Shown here in pieces: positions 20,079 to 32,208 of a DNA stretch of 64,000 nucleotides. The notes below the pieces were generated by a model. That model had not been told where the DNA came from. It ran no database searches and was given only the letters and a program-made list of their open reading frames with translations. Source of the DNA: Halopseudomonas xinjiangensis (lineage in GTDB: Bacteria; Pseudomonadota; Gammaproteobacteria; Pseudomonadales; Pseudomonadaceae); NCBI GenBank assembly GCA_011050525.1, contig DRFO01000013.1, forward strand, positions 20,602 through 84,601, given 5' to 3'. Position numbers and translations under genes: made by a program. Within the stretch, counting starts at the first letter, position 1. Each line of letters starts with the position of its first letter.

Positions 20079-23000
20079 GTTCTGAGCTGCCTGCTCGGCA
20101 GTGAAGGACCGCACCAAATACGGCGCCCGAATCTGGATTTTCTAAGCTGCCTGCTCGGCAGTGAAGACGCCTGCGTCAATCTCGAGGCGGCCGGCTATTT
20201 TCTAAGCTGCCTGCTCGGCAGTGAAGGGAGTCGAGCTTAGTGGCGCTTTCCCAGGCCGTTTCTAAGCTGCCTGCTCGGCAGTGAAGGCCTAATGGTTGCG
20301 TCACCTGCTCTAGTGGTGTTTCTAAGCTGCCTGCTCGGCAGTGAAGCAGACCGCCGTACAGCGCAGAGGAGGGGTTCGTTTCTAAGCTGCCTGCTCGGCA
20401 GTGAAGGGCAAGGGCAAGACGGCAAAAAAACCGTTACTTTTCTAAGCTGCCTGCTCAGCAGTGAAGTACCCCCAGCGGAGCTCTCAGCGTGACCTATGTT
20501 TTCTAAGCTGCCTGCTCGGCAGTGAAGCCGTTGTTATAGTACTTGCGACGAAACAGCGTTTTCTAAGCTGCCTGCTCGGCAGTGAAGGCCAGCTTGACCT
20601 TGTTGTGAAAGATGTCCTTTTTCTGAGCTGCCCGCTCGGCAGTGAAGCTTTGCGCCCCCGACAGGACGATCGCGGCAGTTTTCTGAGCTGCCTGCTCGGC
20701 AGTGAAGGTAATCAACCCCCAAATCAGCCCACATGCTACTTTCTGAGCTGCCTGCTCGGCAGTGAAGATCGGTTCGCGCCGGGCGCTGGCCACTCTCGAT
20801 TTCTGAGCTGCCTGCTCGGCAGTGAAGGTTACTTGTGCCAGGAATGTTGCCGCTAATCATTTCTGAGCTGCCTGCTCGGCAGTGAAGCAGATCCGTACAG
20901 CACCCAGCGTTCGCGCTCATTTCTGAGCTGCCTGCTCGGCAGTGAAGGGCACTCCGGACACGTGGCTGTTTGACCAGTCTTTCTGAGCTGCCTGCTCGGC
21001 AGTGAAGCTTCTCGCTGCAACAGTATCTTGACGCGGAGTTTTCTGAGCTGCCTGCTCGGCAGTGAAGCCATTCCCATAACACTGCGTTACATCTCGCATT
21101 TTCTGAGCTGCCTGCTCGGCAGTGAAGGGCCTCACTGACAAACATCGCAGAGGCATCAATTTCTGAGCTGCCTGCTCGGCAGTGAAGCCCACGCCGCCAC
21201 GGCTGGGGCTTCTACTTCTTTTCTGAGCTGCCTGCTCGGCAGTGAAGGCCATCGTCCTCGCGGTAGTGTTGCGGGCCAATTTCTGAGCTGCCTGCTCGGC
21301 AGTGAAGGCGTTCGGGTTGCTCAAGGTGGCTTTCAAGCATTTCTGAGCTGCCTGCTCGGCAGTGAAGTAGTCTGCGTCAGGATCAACCCAGTATCCTACT
21401 TTCTGAGCTGCCTGCTCGGCAGTGAAGGTCAAGGCCGCTGCGCTGATCCTGGCCGAGCTTTTCTGAGCTGCCTGCTCGGCAGTGAAGTCTTTATTCATGG
21501 CGGCTAGACCCTCCAGCAATTTCTGAGCTGCCTGCTCGGCAGTGAAGGTTCGAGGTGCTGGATTGGAACGAGCTGTCCCTTTCTGAGCTGCCTGCTCGGC
21601 AGTGAAGGTAACGAACCGCATCGGCCAGTTGCTTTTGCATTTCTGAGCTGCCTGCTCGGCAGTGAAGGCTTTCACCAAGGTCACGATGCCGGTCTTACCT
21701 TTCTGAGCTGCCTGCTCGGCAGTGAAGGAGTCGTTTTCGGTGTAGCCCTGGAGCCACGCTTTCTGAGCTGCCTGCTCGGCAGTGAAGTCGGTGGTGGCCG
21801 TGTCGGGGTGGGTGCAACTTTTCTGAGCTGCCTGCTCGGCAGTGAAGTCACCGGGTGCTGCTAAGTCAATATTCTTATTTTTCTGAGCTGCCTGCTCGGC
21901 AGTGAAGTTGAAGTCGTTTGCAGAAGACCATAGCGTCAGTTTCTGAGCTGCCTGCTCGGCAGTGAAGCAGTGTGCTGCGATGCGTGGTGCCGGGAATCAT
22001 TTCTGAGCTGCCTGCTCGGCAGTGAAGACAGGCTCCGCTGTGGGCGTCAGCACTGGCCGTTTCTGAGCTGCCTGCTCGGCAGTGAAGGACCTCCGCCAGA
22101 TGGCTCGCCTGCTGAACGATTTCTGAGCTGCCTGCTCGGCAGTGAAGCCATTTTGGCTGCGAGCTCTTCAGCTGCTGCGTTTCTGAGCTGCCTGCTCGGC
22201 AGTGAAGAGCAAAGGCGACTATGCGGCGAACGTCGTTCTTTTCTGAGCTGCCTGCTCGGCAGTGAAGCGAATGTTTATAGATTGGCTCAGTTGTTCTCAT
22301 TTCTGAGCTGCCTGCTCGGCAGTGAAGATTAGTCCTTTCAGGAATGAACAGCGCTACCGTTTCTGAGCTGCCTGCTCGGCAGTGAAGGAGTAGTTCCCTG
22401 GAAGCTGACCGTTTTCATGTTTCTGAGCTGCCTGCTCGGCAGTGAAGGAGCCGGAGACTTTCAGCGCCTCCAGCAGCTTTTTCTGAGCTGCCTGCTCGGC
22501 AGTGAAGCGGCCAGATCAGGCGGCTGTCGAGCGCGTCCCTTTCTGAGCTGCCTGCTCGGCAGTGAAGGCGGTGTTTATCGGCAGCGTTGCACGCTGCGTT
22601 TCTGAGCTGCCTGCTCGGCAGTGAAGGATTTATCGATGCGGTCGGGCCGACCATTCCTTTTCTGAGCTGCCTGCTCGGCAGTGAAGATACACCCTTGCGG
22701 GGTGATCGGGATGTAGATTTTCTGAGCTGCCTGCTCGGCAGTGAAGAACGCTTCTACCGTCCAGCGCTCGATGTACTGTTTCTGAGCTGCCTGCTCGGCA
22801 GTGAAGGACTTGGGCACGTTCATCAGCGCCTTGCCGATTTTCTGAGCTGCCTGCTCGGCAGTGAAGAGAAAGGAAATGGAACTTAAATGTTTTTCGGTTT
22901 TTCTGAGCTGCCTGCTCGGCAGTGAAGCATCTGGCCCGGCCCCCAAGACGACCTCTGCTTTTCTGAGCTGCCTGCTCGGCAGTGAAGTTCGCCTAAGCGC

Positions 23001-24667
23001 CGGGAGCATCCCCCTTCCTTTTCTGAGCTGCCTGCTCGGCAGTGAAGATAGCGGTGGGCAGTCACAGCACGACACTGCTTTTCTGAGCTGCCTGCTCGGC
23101 AGTGAAGGGTGATGTGGTGCTGATGCGCTGGCACAACCATTTCTGAGCTGCCTGCTCGGCAGTGAAGCTTGACGCACTGTTTCCTATGAACCTTCGTCTT
23201 TTCTGAGCTGCCTGCTCGGCAGTGAAGTCAAGTCGGCAAGCAATGCAGCCGACTACCTTTTTCTGAGCTGCCTGCTCGGCAGTGAAGGGCCATCAGGATC
23301 AGGCGGACCATCAGGGCTGTTTCTGAGCTGCCTGCTCGGCAGTGAAGATAGCGGAACTCCAGCAGCAGCTCCAGCTCATTTTCTGAGCTGCCTGCTCGGC
23401 AGTGAAGCACGAGGAAGGCACCTGGATGGAAGATGAGCATTTCTGAGCTGCCTGCTCGGCAGTGAAGCAGATCACCGAAGAGGGCTATACGCCCGAGCAT
23501 TTCTGAGCTGCCTGCTCGGCAGTGAAGGTTCTGAGCCTCCACGAGGAAGGCACCTGGATTTTCTGAGCTGCCTGCTCGGCAGTGAAGATGAATCCAAGCG
23601 ACTTCTTCACGCGCTCAAATTTCTGAGCTGCCTGCTCGGCAGTGAAGGTGATACTTGCTCTTGCGCTCCCATTTCATTCTTTCTGAGCTGCCTGCTCGGC
23701 AGTGAAGCGTGTTCGGCATCCCGTCCGGCTTCTTCTGCCTTTCTGAGCTGCCTGCTCGGCAGTGAAGGTTGCCTGGCTTAATCAGATCCTTGTCGAGCTT
23801 TTCTGAGCTGCCTGCTCGGCAGTGAAGTCGGCAGCATCTTCTTTGCCTGCGCATTGCCTTTTCTGAGCTGCCTGCTCGGCAGTGAAGGCAGATGAATTCA
23901 ATAACGTCATCGAAGAACTTTTCTGAGCTGCCTGCTCGGCAGTGAAGAACCCCTACGTCATCGAGCGCACTACCGAGCTTTTCTGAGCTGCCTGCTCGGC
24001 AGTGAAGAGGCCGATTGCAACCGGATACTGGACAGGGAATTTCTGAGCTGCCTGCTCGGCAGTGAAGCCCTTTCACTGAGAGGGCATCGAAGATTGATCT
24101 TTCTGAGCTGCCTGCTCGGCAGTGAAGCCGACGGTGCGATACAGGGCGCAGGCCGAGGTTTTCTGAGCTGCCTGCTCGGCAGTGAAGTTCTCGGCTATGG
24201 CTTCAAGCTGGGCGCGGATTTTCTGAGCTGCCTGCTCGGCAGTGAAGTGCTGCTGCGCCGGCTGTCCCTGGCCATCGCTTTTCTGAGCTGCCTGCTCGGC
24301 AGTGAAGGAATTCAACGACAAGGCGCTGATGGTCAGCCGTTTCTGAGCTGCCTGCTCGGCAGTGAAGAAGAAAGCAGTATCGTAAGCGGATTCTTAGCTT
24401 TTCTGAGCTGCCTGCTCGGCAGTGAAGAATAGGGTCGCCAGCTCGAACTCGGTCGGCTTTTTCTGAGCTGCCTGCTCGGCAGTGAAGAGTCCCCGTCGGG
24501 GCCTCCGTCTGATGTAGACTTTCTGAGCTGCCTGCTCGGCAGTGAAGGCCATCGCTGCGTCGGCGCGGCTCTTCGCATATTTCTGAGCTGCCTGCTCGGC
24601 AGTGAAGGTTTCACGCTCGCCGGGATGAGGCACTGCTACTTTCTGAGCTGCCTGCTCGGCAGTGAAG
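20079..24667 (-). CRISPR. type I-F CRISPR array, 77 repeats and 76 spacers
   Basis: Repeats are 28 bp with mostly 32-bp spacers (60-bp period). Three spacers deviate: 33 nt at 20467, 31 nt just after 22567, and 33 nt just after 22866. Read on the minus strand, the repeat contains the I-F hairpin CTGCCGAGCAGGCAG followed by the 5' handle CTCAGAAA. Orientation is set by the csy4 gene and AT-rich leader on the high-coordinate side, and by degenerate repeats at the low-coordinate end. The terminal repeat (20079) begins GT on the plus strand. Repeats 2-9 carry handle CTTAGAAA. Repeats 7 and 10 have single changes in the hairpin. Counts were made from repeat end positions by hand. Confidence 0.98.
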
Positions 24668-24796: not shown

Positions 24797-25354
24797 TTAA
24801 AACCACGGGACGGTAGCTGTTCTGCTCAAGCCGTAGCCGTTAAATTCTCCGGCTACCGGCTGCCCTGCCTGCGACTGTTGCAGGAAAAGCGCAAAATCCT
24901 GCCCGCTGCTGGTGCTTTTCAATCGCAGATACGGAAGATTCAGTTTCTTTTCCACCATACCTGGAATCAGGTTGCGTACCTCTTCTTCCGTCGTTCCGGG
25001 ATGCCGATGGAGGTAGCGGCGCCGTAGCCGCTCGGCACTGGATTTGGCCTGCATGCGCTGAACGCGAATATGTTGTGCGTTGCCGGGTACGTTAACTATC
25101 GCGCTGACTTCAGTGTGATCCCGCATCCCCTTCAGCCATGGCTGCGCCATCAGACCATCAAGCTCGGCGGCCGTGCCATGCAACCTCAGGCGCTGCCCCA
25201 GATGATTGGGTGTTGCGGTTGGAAAACTGATGCCAATGCGCTTGTTTTCACGCTGCACCAAAACCCGGTGCAGCTTGGCGAACAGCGCATTCATCAGTAT
25301 CGGAGCCGGAAACTCAGGGTCCGCCAACAACTGGATTTCCAGATAATGGTCCAT
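24797..25354 (-). CDS. cas6f: Cas6f/Csy4 crRNA endoribonuclease
   Basis: This 185-residue protein is close to P. aeruginosa Csy4 (187). The general-base histidine is at the expected position, H29 (FAKLHR). A Ser/Thr cluster (KSTSS, about 146-150) sits where the catalytic serine lies in Csy4. The arginine-rich helix RLRRRYLHRH (about 109-118) binds the hairpin major groove. It cuts the repeat RNA at the base of the hairpin and stays bound as part of the Csy complex. It is the last cas gene, next to the leader. Confidence 0.97.
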   Translation of the reverse strand: MDHYLEIQLLADPEFPAPILMNALFAKLHRVLVQRENKRIGISFPTATPNHLGQRLRLHGTAAELDGLMAQPWLKGMRDHTEVSAIVNVPGNAQHIRVQRMQAKSSAERLRRRYLHRHPGTTEEEVRNLIPGMVEKKLNLPYLRLKSTSSGQDFALFLQQSQAGQPVAGEFNGYGLSRTATVPWF

Positions 25355-25357
25355 GGA

Positions 25358-26404
25358 TCAATCCTTGTCCGAAGCACCAAAGACGCCACCTCGAATCAGG
25401 GTCGCCATGACGTAATGCTGGTCTCCCTCAGCAGGCGCCTGACCTTTAAGCACCCAGCTATCCAGCAGATTGTAAAAGTCTGCCTTCTGTTTGGGCTGCC
25501 GGTACGCCCTGCCTTCGGAAGTGACCGAGCCATAGGGTTCAACCGCGATAGGGCCGACATTACCCTCTTCGGCCGGATACCAATTATCAATGGTGCGCAG
25601 AGCGTTGCCGATTTTCTGGCTGTGCATGCCCGCTACGCCATCGACGACATACAGCGTTTTGCTCTTCTGTCCCTTTTTATCGCCACGGTCCAATATCAAT
25701 TCCTGCGACGGGTAAACTTCTTGCGCGTCACCCATACGTGCAAAAGCAACCACATCCAGCAGGGCGTAACCGTCTTTTGAGGCCAGGGCTCGCTCGATGA
25801 CACTAGCCATGGCTTGCAAGTCGGCATTGCCGGAACGGGTAAAGTCGCGCAGCGGGAAATCATGGGCGTTGAAGACCCAGCTTTGTTTGACCTGCCCGCC
25901 TTCTACGTGGCTCACCCGCACCTCAACCTCTTCTGCGCCCACGCGGTTGCGCCACAGAAAACGTCCATTGGCGATATTGCAGGCAAAACGGTACGCGAGT
26001 TCCTGGAAACCTTTTTCTTCCACATAGCTCTCGACTGTGGCGAGCAGCGCTTGCTGATAATCGGCGTTATTGCATGCAGAAGGCACACCCGCACCGCCAA
26101 GCAGGCGCAAGGTGAATCGGGCTCGCAAGGTGTCTGCATTGCTGGGCAGCGTTGCGACGTCAACGGTTTGCAGGTTGGGTGATTGGATAGAGGCATCCAG
26201 CTTGGCAGGGTCCTGATCCTTGGTTTTGAGGCGATTGGAAATTGTCCCGCGGACTGATTTTTCCCGCACGGCGACTGCCGACCAGTGGGCTCCTTGATCG
26301 CGCTCTTCCCAGCGACCGGCGCTGAAAATGGCGTCGGAGGGGTCAAGTTTGCGCTCAAAAGCGAGTACGGAGGCGGTCTTCAATTCTGGTTTGGCCATGT
26401 TCAC
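25358..26404 (-). CDS. cas7f: Cas7f/Csy3 backbone subunit
   Basis: This is a 348-residue Csy3, near the usual 342. It begins [25 protein letters not shown], which resembles the family start. Several copies wrap the crRNA spacer, one per 6 nt, in the type I-F surveillance complex. It lies 3 bases upstream of csy4 and 7 bases downstream of csy2 in the csy1-2-3-4 order standard for subtype I-F. No truncation or frameshift is visible. Confidence 0.97.
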
Positions 26405-26411
26405 ATGCTCC

Positions 26412-27395
26412 TTATGCTATGCCATCAGTGGCGTCGTTCAAGTAGTCGGTATAACGATTGATACAGCGATAAATCCCCTGCTCGGCGTCAGCCTGTGTAT
26501 GCCAGAGCAATTGCTGGAACGAGGTGAAGCGATGGGGGCTTACCCACTCGCCAATCGAATAAATGCTTTCGACAAAACGAAACGGGGTGTCAGCGTCACG
26601 CACATTGAGTACCTCTCCCGGCAGATATAGTTCTGACAAACCGGCATACCCTATGGGTAAAGGCACCAACCAGCCCTCGCGCTTGCGTACAGACCATTCA
26701 ACCTGCTCGGGGTGTGCTTCGGAAGGCTCGCCCGGCTCGATATTCAGCCGAGACAGGTCAAGCAGCGCATCGAGCGCGGTAGCGTCTGGATGCTGCTCAC
26801 GCAGTGATTCCAGTGCCAAGCGCAATTTGTCATCGCGCAGCGTAAGGGCAAAGCCCGGCAGGAAGTTGCGTTTCAGATCACGAAACTGTTTCTGTTGACC
26901 AGCCGCATCAGCAGCGAGCGTAAGTATCTCAGGCGCGTAGCGCTTACCCGGCCGCTGCGGGAGGATGCTGCCTCCAGCAAGACGCATGGACAGGACCGCT
27001 TCCATCATCCGCTGGGGCAGGTGTATCAGGTCTTCCGGGTAGAAGTCGTCTTTAACACCAATAACCAGCGTTACCTCAAGATGTGCACGACCCTCTTCGA
27101 CGAGAGCCGAGGTGCTACCGTCCTTGTCTACAGGATTGCGGGTCAGACAGAAAACGTAGGGTGTATATTTGTAGCCGCTCGGAGGCTGAAAAACCTGTGG
27201 CTCAAACCGATGGCAGATAATCCCAACGCCCTCAAACCCTTCTTCCAGCAAACTGCCCAGCTTACGCTCAAGGGCATGAGCAAATCCTGTAAAGGCAGTC
27301 GGCGAGGGAAAGCCCCAGGTAAGGGGCCCCGATACAGCGTTGGCACTTTGCACCCTGAGCCTTGGCAATATGAGTAGTGCTTTGAGATCAGTCAT
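26412..27395 (-). CDS. cas5f: Cas5f/Csy2 subunit
   Basis: This is a 327-residue Csy2. The N-terminal [32 protein letters not shown] region (residues about 6-38) is the conserved Cas5f start. With Csy1 it forms the tail that holds the crRNA 5' handle. Its start overlaps the csy1 stop by 8 bases, so translation is coupled. Confidence 0.97.
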
Positions 27396-28695
27396 GACGG
27401 CTCAACTCCCTGCGCAGCATATTCAGTTCCTGTTCCACTATTCGAGACCACTCGTGAGCCTCGTCTTCGCCGACGGGTAGCCCTCGGTAACGTTCACGCA
27501 AACGGGCGTTCAGCCAGTTGCCGAAACGTTGGGAAACCGCTTGCTGCCAGCTACCGCGCAGGTAAAGCGACGCGAAATGCTCGTCACGCTCTGCCCGTTT
27601 TGGATCTAGCCAGCATCGCTCGTCGCTATTGAGCTGACAGGCTGGATCAGCTGACCAGCCGGGCTCCATTTCATGCTGTTCTGCAGCGAACTGAAACAAC
27701 TCATCAACCAACGCCTGAACGCGGCTGGCGCGGCCGTCGCGCACGGCAAGATTGTTGACTGAGGCCACGCGTATCAGATAACTGTGCAGCTCGTGCAGTA
27801 ATTCTTGAACCAGGGGGCGTTTGCCAAACACTGATTGGAAGACGCTATCGACGCGCAGCGGGGGACGAGCAGCTTCAGACCGCCAGTTAGGCGGCAGGGA
27901 TGGCAAAAGATGATTTTCGCCATACCTTTCGCTGTTGAGCTGGCTGATATTTTGGGGCTTGGTGCCACCAAACTTTTGAACCACCACGTTAGGGTATTCA
28001 TGAAAACCGTGCTGCCAGGTCACCTTGTTTTTTCTTGCAGCCCTGGCGGCCTTGGCTTCGTCGGAAAAGCGATGCTCTCGCATTACTCCCGAAGTATGGC
28101 TTACCAGGGAACTCGGGAAGAGAGGTGCTAGCAAGTGATATTTGCCTCCACCCAAAGACCAGTAAAGCTGCTTGGCCAGTTTGTGGGAGGCTGGTTTGCC
28201 CTTGCTTTCGACCAACGCAGCAAAAGCCTGCATCCATTGCTCTGCCTTGTCGGCATCGGAAGAAAATGCTTGCCGCAATCGCTCGTCTCCGCTGATGGCA
28301 AGGCCAAGAACACTGGTTCCGTCGATGCTCAAGCGCAGGAACTTATAAACATCCAACGCTGCAGCATTTCCGACCACATCAGGCATAAGCTGTTCGCCCA
28401 GGCTGTGCGTTCCCGCCAGTAATTCTCCGGCAGCGGCATTGCCCTGGCTGTACAAACTGGAGCCACGCGCATCCGGATGGGTGTATTTGATCGCGTGGGT
28501 AACCTGCTGAATCTGCATCACCCGGCGCGCGGCGTCTGCCAGCCAGGTTTCCGGTTCGTGCGCTGCTATCAGACGATCACGTTCGAGGTCGTCATCCTTG
28601 AGCTTATCCAGCTTGGGCTGAAGGCGGGAATCAAGGAAAACGGTGATAACGTTACGAATTTCATCGATTGAGAAATCACTGATGGGGGTCACCAT
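27388..28695 (-). CDS. cas8f: Cas8f/Csy1 large subunit
   Basis: This is a 435-residue Csy1, the usual length (434 in P. aeruginosa). It reads the double-stranded PAM (CC/GG) and nucleates DNA unwinding. It is the first gene of the csy1-4 block. Unlike compact I-F operons there is a 243-bp gap before it, between cas3 and csy1. That gap holds the divergently transcribed CreR-like RNA and presumably the csy promoter, so the csy genes are likely expressed separately from cas1-cas3. The start MVTPISDFSIDEIRNV fits the family. Confidence 0.97.
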   Translation of the reverse strand: MVTPISDFSIDEIRNVITVFLDSRLQPKLDKLKDDDLERDRLIAAHEPETWLADAARRVMQIQQVTHAIKYTHPDARGSSLYSQGNAAAGELLAGTHSLGEQLMPDVVGNAAALDVYKFLRLSIDGTSVLGLAISGDERLRQAFSSDADKAEQWMQAFAALVESKGKPASHKLAKQLYWSLGGGKYHLLAPLFPSSLVSHTSGVMREHRFSDEAKAARAARKNKVTWQHGFHEYPNVVVQKFGGTKPQNISQLNSERYGENHLLPSLPPNWRSEAARPPLRVDSVFQSVFGKRPLVQELLHELHSYLIRVASVNNLAVRDGRASRVQALVDELFQFAAEQHEMEPGWSADPACQLNSDERCWLDPKRAERDEHFASLYLRGSWQQAVSQRFGNWLNARLRERYRGLPVGEDEAHEWSRIVEQELNMLRRELSRHD

Positions 28696-28749: not shown

Positions 28750-28778
28750 AGACTACTCCCAGCGCTGAGTCAAATCAA
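28750..28778 (-). promoter_or_regulatory. possible csy1 promoter
   Basis: On the minus strand, TTGATT (28773-28778) and TAGTCT (28750-28755) are spaced 17 bp, about 55-83 bp before the csy1 ATG. An overlapping TTGACT (28768-28773) is an alternative -35. Both -10 candidates are weak, so the assignment is tentative. The upstream edge directly abuts the CC PAM of the CreR target. Confidence 0.4.
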
Positions 28779-28797
28779 CCTAGCATTGCTTTAAATA
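28779..28797 (+). promoter_or_regulatory. PAM-flanked target of the CreR-like RNA upstream of csy1
   Basis: The 17-bp sequence TAGCATTGCTTTAAATA (28781-28797) is identical to the first 17 nt of the mini-array spacer at 28863-28879, in the same orientation. It is immediately preceded by CC (28779-28780), the type I-F PAM. The match includes the whole seed and ends after 17 bases. A Csy complex here would cover about 28779-28812, next to the presumed csy1 -35 and over the region upstream of the RNA's own -10. Confidence 0.8.
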
Positions 28798-28823: not shown

Positions 28824-28829
28824 TATTAT
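28824..28829 (+). promoter_or_regulatory. -10 element of the CreR-like RNA
   Basis: TATTAT lies 6 bp before the first degenerate repeat, which places the transcription start at about 28836. No good -35 is seen at 16-18 bp upstream (the region reads ATACCAA), so the promoter may be weak or need an activator. Confidence 0.5.
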
Positions 28830-28834
28830 GCTGG

Positions 28835-28940
28835 GCACGACTGCTGAGAAGCAGCTTAGAAATAGCATTGCTTTAAATACCATCTATTGCACTGCCGTGT
28901 AGGCAGGCGGAAGAAGCGCCTGATATTCAGGCGCTTTCTT
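28835..28940 (+). ncRNA. CreR-like Cas-regulating RNA: degenerate I-F mini-array opposite the csy genes
   Basis: Two diverged I-F repeats flank a 24-nt spacer in the cas3-csy1 gap. Repeat 1 (28835-28862) keeps a small hairpin CTGC-TGAGAA-GCAG and the exact 5' handle CTTAGAAA. The spacer is 28863-28886. Repeat 2 (28887-28914) keeps the full 16-nt core ACTGCCGTGTAGGCAG of the common Pseudomonas I-F repeat. A TATTAT -10 precedes it and a 10-bp terminator hairpin follows. The first 17 spacer bases match a CC-flanked site by the csy1 promoter. This layout is that of CreR RNAs, which direct the Cas effector to repress cas transcription without cleavage because pairing is only partial. The shortened spacer and degenerate first repeat also fit. 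Expression is untested. Confidence 0.82.
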
Positions 28941-28950
28941 ATCGTTTTTT
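28914..28950 (+). terminator. terminator of the CreR-like RNA
   Basis: AAGCGCCTGA (28914-28923) pairs perfectly with TCAGGCGCTT (28927-28936) around a 3-base loop, followed on the plus strand by TCTTATCGTTTTTT. On the minus strand the sequence after the hairpin is GC-rich, so it is not a good terminator for cas3. Confidence 0.75.
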
Positions 28951-31900
28951 GCTAAACCCCAACGCAGAATGATAGTACCAACCGTTATCACAACCCTTGG
29001 CTGGCAGATCGATATAGCCAAACTGCTGGGCGGTGTCGGCAGGGTCTTTGTTCAAGCGCTCGGCAAGAGCGTCCAGAATCTCACGATAATCCGCCTGACC
29101 CCACGAATTGATTCTCTGGCCAGGCTCAAAGGCCTGAGCCGTCATCAGGTTATTAGAAGGGACCAGGCTGCCGTCATCTTCCACCCGATGGAAATCCAAC
29201 CCGCCCTCTTCATCAGGAAGGAGCACATAGCGCTGCCGACCGAGAGGATCATTACGAAATGGTTGTTTACGCTGCAAAGCCCCGCACAGCGATGAGTTGT
29301 AGGCCCACCACCAGCATGCGGGTATGAGCTTGAGCTCTTCGCCGGGCGGCGAACCCTGCATCCACTGCTGGATAACATGGTGTTCAAGGTCTACAAGATT
29401 GCGCGCGGGGTCAGGGTCTGGGCGAAGACGAATGCGGCTGGACGCATCCATCACCTGCCACTGCTCCGGTATCAGCAAGTCGCTCAACTGATGGCTCTTT
29501 AGCCGAAATTGCTCACTTTCAAACCCAGGCCGGCAAAAAGCCGACTTAGCCATGCCGGTCTTGAGGTGCGCCAGATTGGTGTCCAGCAGATAGAGATTCG
29601 GGGCAGTTATATTCCCTGGGCGGTGGCGACGTATGCGGCCAGCCAGCTGGATGATCGAACGCATGGATGAGGGCTCGACAATCCCCCAGTCGTAATCATG
29701 ATCACGCCCTACTTCAGCCACGGCCGTGGCCAGCACGACGAATATCTGCTGCGGCTCAGGATAGGCATCTAACCATTCACGCATTTCAGGATCAATGAAC
29801 AGCGCTTGGTCATCGTGCCTTGTCAACAGCCTGTCCAGCCTGTTTTCAATCGCTGAACGCACTGCCAGCGGATGCTTGGAATGGTAGACACACAGATGAA
29901 TGCGAGACCCCTCCGGCGCGCCCTGACGAAACAGCTCCTTTGCCACGTCTACCAGAGGGTCGATATTCGCCATCCGCACCAGACCGATGCTGACGCGCTT
30001 GCCGGTCTGCGGGTCGGCCATGCCGTGATTCCGGTGTAGGGACTGCAATAGCGAACCAATCTCGCAGGCGAACGCCTGATAACGCTCCGTCTCTTCCAGG
30101 CCGTTGGCGATTGGCAATATCTGTATCTGCGCTTTACGTCGGCTCTCCGCCTGGGAGCTGACATCAAGCTTGCTCAGGCGTTTATCCACAAACTGATTAT
30201 GAGCGAGCAGATAGCTTCCCGGCTCTGCATGGTCACTGGCAACAGCCCCGAACTCGTCAAACCAGGCACAACAGATATTCAATACCTGGCCCGGGCGGCC
30301 ACGGTGACGCTGATAATGACGTCGCCCCTCGAGGTAAGCCTCATATAATCCCTGGATCAAAGCGGGCGGCAAGGTAGCGGACGATAACAGCACGCGGCTA
30401 CCGAGCATACCTGCCCAGTTAACCAGCCGCGTCAGCGCTGGTAGATCTTCCAGGCCAAAGTCATCGGGCTCATCCAGGATCAGATCTGAGGTCATCAACC
30501 GCAGCATGGGTGGGATCTGATGCCCGCCACGGAGGCCTTCAGTAGCAGGCATGAGGTGATCAATGGTGCAGGTCAATACGGGCGCGTTAAGTAATCTCTG
30601 CGCATTGGTATTATCTTTTAGCCAATGATTCAGCGGTCCGTCTGCAAGACTGCCTTCAAAATGCACATGCTGGCTGGCCGGAAGCAGGCTGGCACTGGAT
30701 TCGGAACCGTGTTTTGCGTAGGTATCCATGTTGTTAGCGTTCAGCTCATGCAATCGCCGGACGGCGGTACCGCCGACCAGTACAGCGAGATCCTCTTCAC
30801 CCAGACTGAGGCGTTCGCGATACGCATCGCCCGTTTGCAGCGTCAGGGTGCGCAAACCCAGCGCGATAGTGAAACGGGCTCCCTGCTGTGGATTGGCCAG
30901 CGCGTACATAATGCGACCGTTGGCCAGGGTTTTACCGCAACCTGTCGAGGCCATGTTCACACCGAAGAAACCGTGTTCGGCACTTTTTCCTTGCAACGCT
31001 TCAGCCAGGTCGAAGGCTTTGTCCTGCCAGGCAAAACGCCGATCCCGACTGCGTTGGCGAAAGCCCTTGTGACGGGCTATTCGTGGCAAGGCCTCCGCCA
31101 ACCCCGGCAGGCTGCGGACAATCCGACTGGCATTGACCTCGACGCCAATCAAATGCTCGTCAAGACGCTGCTTCAGTTGGCCAGTCTGGCGATCTGTGTT
31201 GGCATGCAGCGGATAATCGGGGTCGCCATAGCGCCCATGACTCGGCTGGCTGGAGTAATAATGGTCCGCCAACATCAGTGCCATTCTGGACAGGTGCATT
31301 ATGTACGGGTCTTGCAGCCAGTCCTTATCAAGCATGCCGCTACGCTTGAGAAGCCCGTCTGCCAGCTTGCGGGCATGTTGGCACCAGTGAAGGCTATCGA
31401 ACGGCAGGCCCTTTTTCAGATTCCAGCACTGTTTGATTGTTGCATCGGTAACGTCCTGGCGGGAGCCACACCAGTCGCTCGAAATCGAACCTGGCAACCG
31501 TTCAAGCGAGCTTTGGTTCAGTTGAAATTGGCGATCCGAAGCAGTGGGAACACGATGGTGGCTGACAATTAGCCAACCCACTGCACAAGCCAGCGGCTTC
31601 ATGCTGCGGAAAGGGCTTTGGGTGATGGAATCAATCCCGTCCCTGATCAGGGCGTCCAGACAGGCTTTGGTGACTTTTTTATCCGCTTTGGCCAACCGTG
31701 CCAGCCACTGTTCATCCGGATCCTGTCCCACGAAAGCTTGAAACAAGCGCAGGGATATCCATTCATGGCGGTACGGATCGGCAACTGCCTGATTGGTTTC
31801 CAGCTTCTTTTGAAAAGCCTGGGTAGCCTTGCCAAAGTCGTGAAACAACGCTGCAATGCTGGCCAGCAACCGTATTTCTTCAGCGCTGTGCCAATCGTTT

Positions 31901-32208
31901 TCGTCACCTGCCCGCAGCACATCTCGAGCGGTCATATTGGTGGGAGTAGCGCCGCGAATATTGAACTGGCGACCATCACCCACGACCCAGAGCAGTTCGC
32001 TGTGATCCTTGCCACGGATCCAGTGGCAGGCTACGGCGGTGTTTTTGCGTGCGGTCTTTCGCAGCAGTTTGTGTAGGGTATCGAGGCCTGCGAGAGTAAT
32101 CGCCGTTTGCCAGGTGCGCTCACCACGCCTTTCGGCAAACTGGTCGAGAATGCGGCGGCTTTCCGCCAATGCTCGCTTGCTGCACTGTGACACCAGCAGC
32201 ACATTCAT
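28939..32208 (-). CDS. cas2-3: Cas2-Cas3 fusion helicase-nuclease, type I-F
   Basis: This is a 1089-residue protein with the I-F-specific Cas2 fusion at its N-terminus (about 1-95, MNVLLVSQCSKRALAESRRI). The HD nuclease domain has FHDFGKA (H123, D124) and a later SHHR pair (217-218). The SF2 helicase has Walker A STGCGKT (421-427) and the motif II variant DEPD (about 579-582). It associates with Cas1 during spacer acquisition and is recruited by target-bound Csy complex to unwind and degrade DNA. Its ATG overlaps the cas1 stop by 4 bases. All motifs look intact. Confidence 0.97.
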   Translation of the reverse strand: MNVLLVSQCSKRALAESRRILDQFAERRGERTWQTAITLAGLDTLHKLLRKTARKNTAVACHWIRGKDHSELLWVVGDGRQFNIRGATPTNMTARDVLRAGDENDWHSAEEIRLLASIAALFHDFGKATQAFQKKLETNQAVADPYRHEWISLRLFQAFVGQDPDEQWLARLAKADKKVTKACLDALIRDGIDSITQSPFRSMKPLACAVGWLIVSHHRVPTASDRQFQLNQSSLERLPGSISSDWCGSRQDVTDATIKQCWNLKKGLPFDSLHWCQHARKLADGLLKRSGMLDKDWLQDPYIMHLSRMALMLADHYYSSQPSHGRYGDPDYPLHANTDRQTGQLKQRLDEHLIGVEVNASRIVRSLPGLAEALPRIARHKGFRQRSRDRRFAWQDKAFDLAEALQGKSAEHGFFGVNMASTGCGKTLANGRIMYALANPQQGARFTIALGLRTLTLQTGDAYRERLSLGEEDLAVLVGGTAVRRLHELNANNMDTYAKHGSESSASLLPASQHVHFEGSLADGPLNHWLKDNTNAQRLLNAPVLTCTIDHLMPATEGLRGGHQIPPMLRLMTSDLILDEPDDFGLEDLPALTRLVNWAGMLGSRVLLSSATLPPALIQGLYEAYLEGRRHYQRHRGRPGQVLNICCAWFDEFGAVASDHAEPGSYLLAHNQFVDKRLSKLDVSSQAESRRKAQIQILPIANGLEETERYQAFACEIGSLLQSLHRNHGMADPQTGKRVSIGLVRMANIDPLVDVAKELFRQGAPEGSRIHLCVYHSKHPLAVRSAIENRLDRLLTRHDDQALFIDPEMREWLDAYPEPQQIFVVLATAVAEVGRDHDYDWGIVEPSSMRSIIQLAGRIRRHRPGNITAPNLYLLDTNLAHLKTGMAKSAFCRPGFESEQFRLKSHQLSDLLIPEQWQVMDASSRIRLRPDPDPARNLVDLEHHVIQQWMQGSPPGEELKLIPACWWWAYNSSLCGALQRKQPFRNDPLGRQRYVLLPDEEGGLDFHRVEDDGSLVPSNNLMTAQAFEPGQRINSWGQADYREILDALAERLNKDPADTAQQFGYIDLPAKGCDNGWYYHSALGFSKKR

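Follow-up and report, generated by a model that had tools for sequence, protein, structure and literature searches.

A CreR-like mini-array in the cas3-csy1 gap of a type I-F CRISPR-Cas locus, predicted to guide the Csy complex to its own operon

The window, a 64,000-nt stretch of Halopseudomonas xinjiangensis DNA, contains a type I-F CRISPR-Cas locus with a mini-array in the gap between cas3f and csy1. With a probability of roughly 0.83, this mini-array gives rise to a crRNA-like guide (CreR) by which the Csy complex would be directed to a CC-flanked site, likely repressing csy1-csy2-csy3-cas6f. Autorepression of the csy operon is, as a prediction, well supported; for one type I-F locus, every part of such a circuit can now be predicted, including an exact target. 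Moreover, in the 143 loci compared, the positions that the Csy complex reads are shared by guide and target, and every sixth position drifts, so that the effector reading can be judged from sequence. An earlier note on this DNA had proposed a CreR RNA here; the crRNA-like unit that it described is present in the sequence, and the PAM-flanked match upstream of csy1, which was absent from that account, was found in this analysis (17 of 17 bases, CC-flanked, 28781-28797). Its remark about a degraded hairpin did not hold.

The mini-array, its target and the csy1 promoter

The locus is assigned to type I-F because its Csy4, Csy3, Csy2, Csy1, Cas3f and Cas1f all exceed their NCBIfam cut-offs. On the minus strand, the order is cas1f, cas3f (28939..32208; the upstream neighbour of the gap), a 243-nt gap, csy1 (cas8f; 27388..28695), csy2, csy3, cas6f and a long array. 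The four genes from csy1 to cas6f (24797-28695) form the predicted regulated operon, with csy1 first, and the canonical I-F array (20139..24667, minus strand) would be the source of competing crRNAs. Its spacers are 32 nt long and its repeat hairpin is CTGCC-GAGCA-GGCAG; the handle varies along the array, reading CTTAGAAA at the trailer end and, among the 15 repeats listed, CTCAGAAA from position 20620 onwards up to the leader.

Within the gap, two I-F repeat-like hairpins surround a 24-nt spacer on the plus strand, opposite the cas genes, and the sequence confirms the coordinates and strand previously given for both repeats, the spacer and a TATTAT box. In repeat 1 (R1; 28835-28862), the hairpin CTGCT-GAGA-AGCAG (28841..28854) has an intact 5-bp stem and a 4-nt loop, and the claim that it is degraded is wrong; compared to the array hairpin, one stem pair is altered on both sides. 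The hairpin is followed by the predicted 5′ handle CTTAGAAA (28855..28862), which is the exact handle noted before and the form carried by the trailer-side array repeats. The spacer (28863..28886) leads into repeat 2 (R2; 28887..28914), whose stem-loop CTGCC-GTGTA-GGCAG lies at 28892-28906; the stem part of the intact core attributed to this repeat is there, but the handle is absent, with GCGGAAGA in its place. The diverged repeats and the 24-nt spacer rule out a canonical I-F array. At the gathering threshold, Rfam lists 75 array repeats, and the mini-array unit is not among them.

Upstream, the proposed -10-like box TATTAT (28824..28829, plus strand) is present, 17 nt before the R1 stem; the promoter that it was taken to mark is not listed by a sigma-70 scan requiring both boxes, despite the box itself. 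Among the 33 carriers of the survey below, the most frequent position of a TATAAT-like box is 13 nt ahead of the stem, and at least 4 of its 6 bases agree in 12 of them. Downstream, the terminator hairpin claimed after the mini-array is found as a terminator-like stem-loop with 11 pairs (28913..28937, plus strand), where the scan returned one terminator with 0.5 expected. The mini-array RNA folds more stably than its shuffles (z -3.35); in the lowest-energy fold the 3′ arm of R1 pairs with the spacer, and the R1 hairpin appears in the centroid only. The R1 pattern is unique in the genome, which, as the pattern was built for a 4-nt loop, shows merely that this form of R1 is single. Loops of four bases in R1 (GAGA, GCAA or GCTA) are also seen in L065, L084, L086 and L102 besides the window (L010), and array repeats have five; presumably, such GNRA-like loops may imitate the form bound by Cas6f.

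The first 17 nt of the spacer (28863-28879) are identical to the target, or protospacer, at 28781..28797 on the plus strand, and 2 of the next 7 nt agree. The match begins exactly at the border between handle and spacer, immediately after a CC (28779..28780, plus strand), the dinucleotide described as the I-F PAM (PMC10097628), and the target is situated 85 nt upstream of the csy1 ATG. A search of the draft genome (3.97 Mb, 92% complete) for CC and the first 15 seed bases, allowing up to two mismatches, returned only the target and the spacer itself, which has AA for CC; a backwards-pattern control returned 1 match. Further, when spacers were scored on the gaps of other loci (1,182 pairs), none scored as high as the window match. 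The exact start at the border and the CC, the swapped-pair scores and the uniqueness in the draft genome together indicate that the match exceeds chance. It is the longest CC-flanked match among the 44 matched loci and spans nt 6 and 12, and consequently the six-base period described below is not visible in the window itself.

The predicted csy1 promoter (28750..28778, minus strand) is weak, and its -35 box was placed by comparison with other loci. It consists of TTGATT (28773-28778; 4 of 6 bases), which adjoins the PAM, a distance of 17 nt, and TAGTCT (28750-28755; 3 of 6). The best-scoring promoter pair in our own scoring is 5 nt beyond this one, and the scan tool prefers another weak pair nearer csy1. 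If the promoter were at the weak pairs nearer csy1, the target would sit upstream of it. Across the survey, a TTGACA-like box (5-6 of 6 bases) occurs on the csy strand within 0-2 nt of the PAM in 16 of 31 loci, compared to 0-2 in background windows. A terminator scan of the csy strand lists none between target and csy1 in the window, and transcripts from a promoter beside the target should therefore run into csy1.

In the proposed mechanism, the mini-array would be transcribed from about 28836 to the terminator, and Cas6f would cut after both stems, yielding a predicted mature guide of 52 nt (28855-28906, plus strand) with an 8-nt handle, a 24-nt spacer and a 20-nt hairpin end. The Csy complex, in a shortened form, would then pair with 17 nt from the PAM and, as this PAM abuts the predicted -35 box, block RNA polymerase. 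Because the spacer is short and pairing stops at its nt 17, Cas3 would likely stay inactive and the site uncut. The block would be lifted by additional crRNA from the array or by an anti-CRISPR protein that ties up the Csy proteins; on this scheme, the guide would sense crRNA and respond to anti-CRISPR proteins. If so, Csy levels at the window locus would rise in the presence of anti-CRISPR proteins or of abundant crRNA, which matters for phage counter-defence and for editing with native I-F systems. On the other side, transcription running through from cas3 could escape the block, and the model is weakened by the weak csy1 promoter in the window and the other weak pairs nearer csy1.

Guide and target across type I-F loci

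The survey covered 98 loci including the window, of which 19 came from a family-level genome search and 79 from 80 named loci, themselves the best 80 of 261 from an alignment-query search of genome contigs; a single-sequence Csy1 search of the contigs had given no locus, and the alignment query succeeded. Outside the 98 are L020, L022 and L023, whose Csy1 matches were partial or weak, and L029, with no upstream DNA. A second set of 45 further loci (27 + 18) brings the total to 143 and leaves out three matches (G355, G109 and G330). A locus counted as a carrier if, up to 700 nt upstream of the Csy1 match, it had an antisense R1 whose stem was 5 bp long and whose handle agreed in 6 or more of 8 bases; in the second set, R1 copies no more than 25 nt from the csy1 end of the stretch scanned were skipped and are uncounted. 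For each carrier, the best 17-nt match in the gap was taken on either strand, with no PAM required and with all 17 positions equally weighted. An earlier scoring had skipped guide nt 6 and 12 and could favour mismatches there; the scoring was therefore redone with equal weights and then carried to new loci.

The antisense unit is present in 33 of the 98 loci and R1 in 14 of the 45, counts that include near kin and duplicates (L012/L047, L099/L108, L014/L024, L019/L027, L031/L049, L065/L084, L068/L081 and L134/L143) and hence represent fewer independent cases. The gap sequences of L014 and L024 (H. aestusnigri) are identical, as are those of L019 and L027 (H. yangmingensis). The recurrence of the element in the cas3-csy1 gap of other genomes, which the earlier note had raised, is thus seen in both sets; it fails in two congeneric (Halopseudomonas) I-F loci, which have neither gap nor unit, so that no close relative shows conservation of the window's unit.

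In 32 of the 33 carriers, the best spacer match is CC-flanked, and in 31 of the 33 it is on the guide's own strand; swapping spacers and gaps (200 shuffles) gave a mean of 2.6 CC-flanked matches and a maximum of 8. The second set has 12 CC-flanked matches out of 14, with a control mean of 1.4 and a maximum of 4. The carriers of R1 whose best match is not CC-flanked are L036 in the first set and L120 and L126 in the second, and in L061, L106 and L125 the best target lies on the strand opposite to the guide's.

The mismatches within these matches follow a period. From nt 1 to 17, they number 0, 0, 0, 0, 0, 26, 0, 4, 3, 3, 2, 21, 2, 10, 9, 6 and 3 across the 32 loci, and 0, 0, 0, 0, 0, 8, 0, 0, 3, 1, 2, 10, 0, 0, 3, 1 and 2 in the second set. 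Over both sets, nt 6 is mismatched in 34 of 44 loci and nt 12 in 31 of 44, with about 75% expected for free drift; nt 1-5 and 7 are mismatched in none of the 44. Type I complexes flip every sixth base of the guide out of the duplex. The CC flank and the six-base period therefore point to pairing inside the Csy complex, as RNA-RNA pairing accounts for neither, and the overall pattern fits recognition by a Csy complex.

The units also share their dimensions. The gap measures at least 156 nt in 32 of 32 measured carriers, and among 59 measured non-carriers it is shorter than 100 nt in 36 and at least 155 nt in 20 (L012 and six others are excluded from the measurement). Effective spacers are 13-27 nt long in 29 of the 31 loci with a usable R2, which L036 and L060 do not have; the other two are 32 nt (L064) and 38 nt (L074). 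Several loci depart from the common layout: L066 has the unit in sense orientation, L028 has a true array, and L013, L033 and L041 have degenerate or single units that the carrier filter missed. The gap of L044 holds a three-repeat unit with two identical copies of its spacer. L003, L004, L005 and L021 have long insertions before csy1 that, by eye, resemble a HipB-type HTH gene and more, possibly toxin-antitoxin cargo in the cas3-csy1 gap.

Payloads of the guide and alternative readings

In the first set, the target is CC-flanked and sits on the guide strand in 31 loci, which were split by content and by the distance from PAM to csy1. The long class comprises 16 loci (232-360 nt), all with a mini-ORF of 9-12 codons that is preceded by a Shine-Dalgarno-like stretch (5-6 of 6 bases to AGGAGG). 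The short class comprises 15 loci (13-159 nt), including the window, and a scan of 300 nt past the PAM found a mini-ORF in none of them. Of 10 such loci in the second set, three are long with a mini-ORF, L113 is long (267 nt) without one, and six are short (12-128 nt), with no mini-ORF detected. The long class resembles creT of Acinetobacter, a 33-bp mini-ORF in the same gap.

The creT-like mini-ORFs, situated between target and csy1, are those of L031, L037, L039, L046, L049, L051, L064, L074, L077, L080, L085, L086, L087, L092, L097, L099, L104, L108 and L114. Their codons 8-9 are a tandem of rare type in 19 of 19, with AGA-AGA in 9, ATA-ATA in 5, TTA-TTA in 3 and mixed codons in 2; L046 has two such mini-ORFs in succession, both containing AGA-AGA and each preceded by a separate Shine-Dalgarno-like stretch. 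Archaeal CreT toxins are described as trapping rare tRNAs via AGA-AGA or AUA-AUA (PMC8501985), and by analogy the bacterial I-F minigenes likely do the same, the TTA-TTA minigenes adding a further tRNA target.

These minigenes bring in a rival reading, in which the window's guide would act as in CreTA, repressing a small toxic RNA gene between target and csy1, so that loss of Csy poisons the cell and control of csy1 is secondary. It is a serious rival because CreTA occupies the same intergenic region in Acinetobacter, where creA of a I-F system lies opposite creT and the target is upstream of the mini-ORF (PMC10097628); moreover, mini-ORFs accompany 16 of the 31 comparable loci of the first set and 3 of the 10 of the second. 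However, the window, with 85 nt from PAM to csy1 ATG, lacks a mini-ORF with a Shine-Dalgarno score of at least 5, the kind of hairpin seen in the long class, and a terminator ahead of csy1, and its short class was equally devoid of mini-ORFs. CreR is favoured over CreTA by the lack of both a mini-ORF and a terminator between target and csy1, and we consider the toxin reading improbable for this locus.

The distribution of the payloads was followed on a Csy1 tree, built by a quick method and with several long branches, whose 76 rows (19 toxin, 21 short and 36 with a gap below 100 nt) exclude loci fitting none of these three labels. The three states need at least 27 changes, compared to a mean of 33.4 for shuffled labels. 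The toxin class clusters no more than shuffled labels (17 changes, mean 17.2), and the short class is somewhat clustered (15 changes, mean 18.7). The sister pairs L039/L045, L086/L102 and L084/L104 differ in state, and the rows nearest to the window are Halopseudomonas loci without gap or unit. Judging by these frequent changes, the unit seems to have been gained, lost and re-purposed often. A broader proposal, which we put forward tentatively and at slightly less than even odds, is that the gap is an exchange site, where the guide module is kept and its payload flips repeatedly between a toxin minigene and the cas operon, the window being in the autoregulatory state, held there by the longest guide-target match of the set, and CreR and CreTA being interconvertible. 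If this were true, CreR and CreTA would not have been invented separately but would be two states of a single device, and the payload minigenes would be toxins that trap rare tRNAs through AGA-AGA, ATA-ATA or TTA-TTA.

The same turnover could be read to mean that the window's unit has lost its function and is decaying, as a remnant of an old CRISPR array or CreTA unit. The congeners without the unit and the frequent changes on the tree agree with such decay, as do repeats that differ from those of the array (loops GAGA and GTGTA versus GAGCA). A relic, however, would hardly retain a terminator, a handle that is still exact and a stem pair in which both sides have changed, or hold the longest CC-flanked match among 44 matched loci, which makes this reading very improbable.

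Still less is to be said for a plain antisense RNA, a plus-strand transcript that would pair with the csy1 mRNA leader and block translation without Csy proteins. It would have 17 nt of perfect complementarity if the csy1 mRNA began upstream of the target, but the predicted csy1 start in the window is downstream of it. Neither the CC flank (32 of 33 and 12 of 14) with mismatches at nt 6 and 12 nor the conserved repeat hairpin and handle would be expected of such an RNA, and we regard it as highly unlikely. Finally, an RNA anti-CRISPR (Racr) is rejected, as it needs a solitary repeat borne by a virus or plasmid; here two repeats lie inside a cas locus, and the mini-array region has no match in phage or plasmid collections (E 1e-5).

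Relation to known systems

The Racr RNAs are phage-borne RNA anti-CRISPRs with solitary I-F repeats that jam Cas6f and Cas7f (PMC10651486). The window shares with them a mimic of the I-F repeat outside the array; in contrast to the single phage repeat, it has two repeats in a cas locus together with a matched target.

Acinetobacter CreTA is closer in layout, with the same gap, the opposite orientation, two diverged repeats, a short spacer and a CC-flanked target. Its spacer is given as 20 nt, with mismatches at 6, 11 and 18 (PMC10097628). The difference is in the payload: there the target is upstream of the creT mini-ORF, whereas the window has no mini-ORF.

The CreR RNAs, or cas-regulating RNAs (Liu et al. 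2023, Cell Host Microbe, as cited in PMC13131331 and PMC12737573), are described for types I-B, I-E and V-A (PMC13131331). The window resembles them in having a mini-CRISPR, a crRNA-like guide and limited, PAM-flanked complementarity near the cas operon. It differs in its type I-F effector and its 17 contiguous matched bases, and its regulatory role is predicted. Within type I-F1, Shmakov et al. (2023, NAR 51:8150) reportedly described two-repeat mini-arrays with a spacer partly complementary to the cas8 promoter, one case of which is said to have been tested by experiment. With csy1 being cas8f, the window mini-array would presumably be a member of these I-F1 cas8-promoter mini-arrays. This kind of self-regulation is already known as CreR, and the mini-array in the window would be a further case of it.
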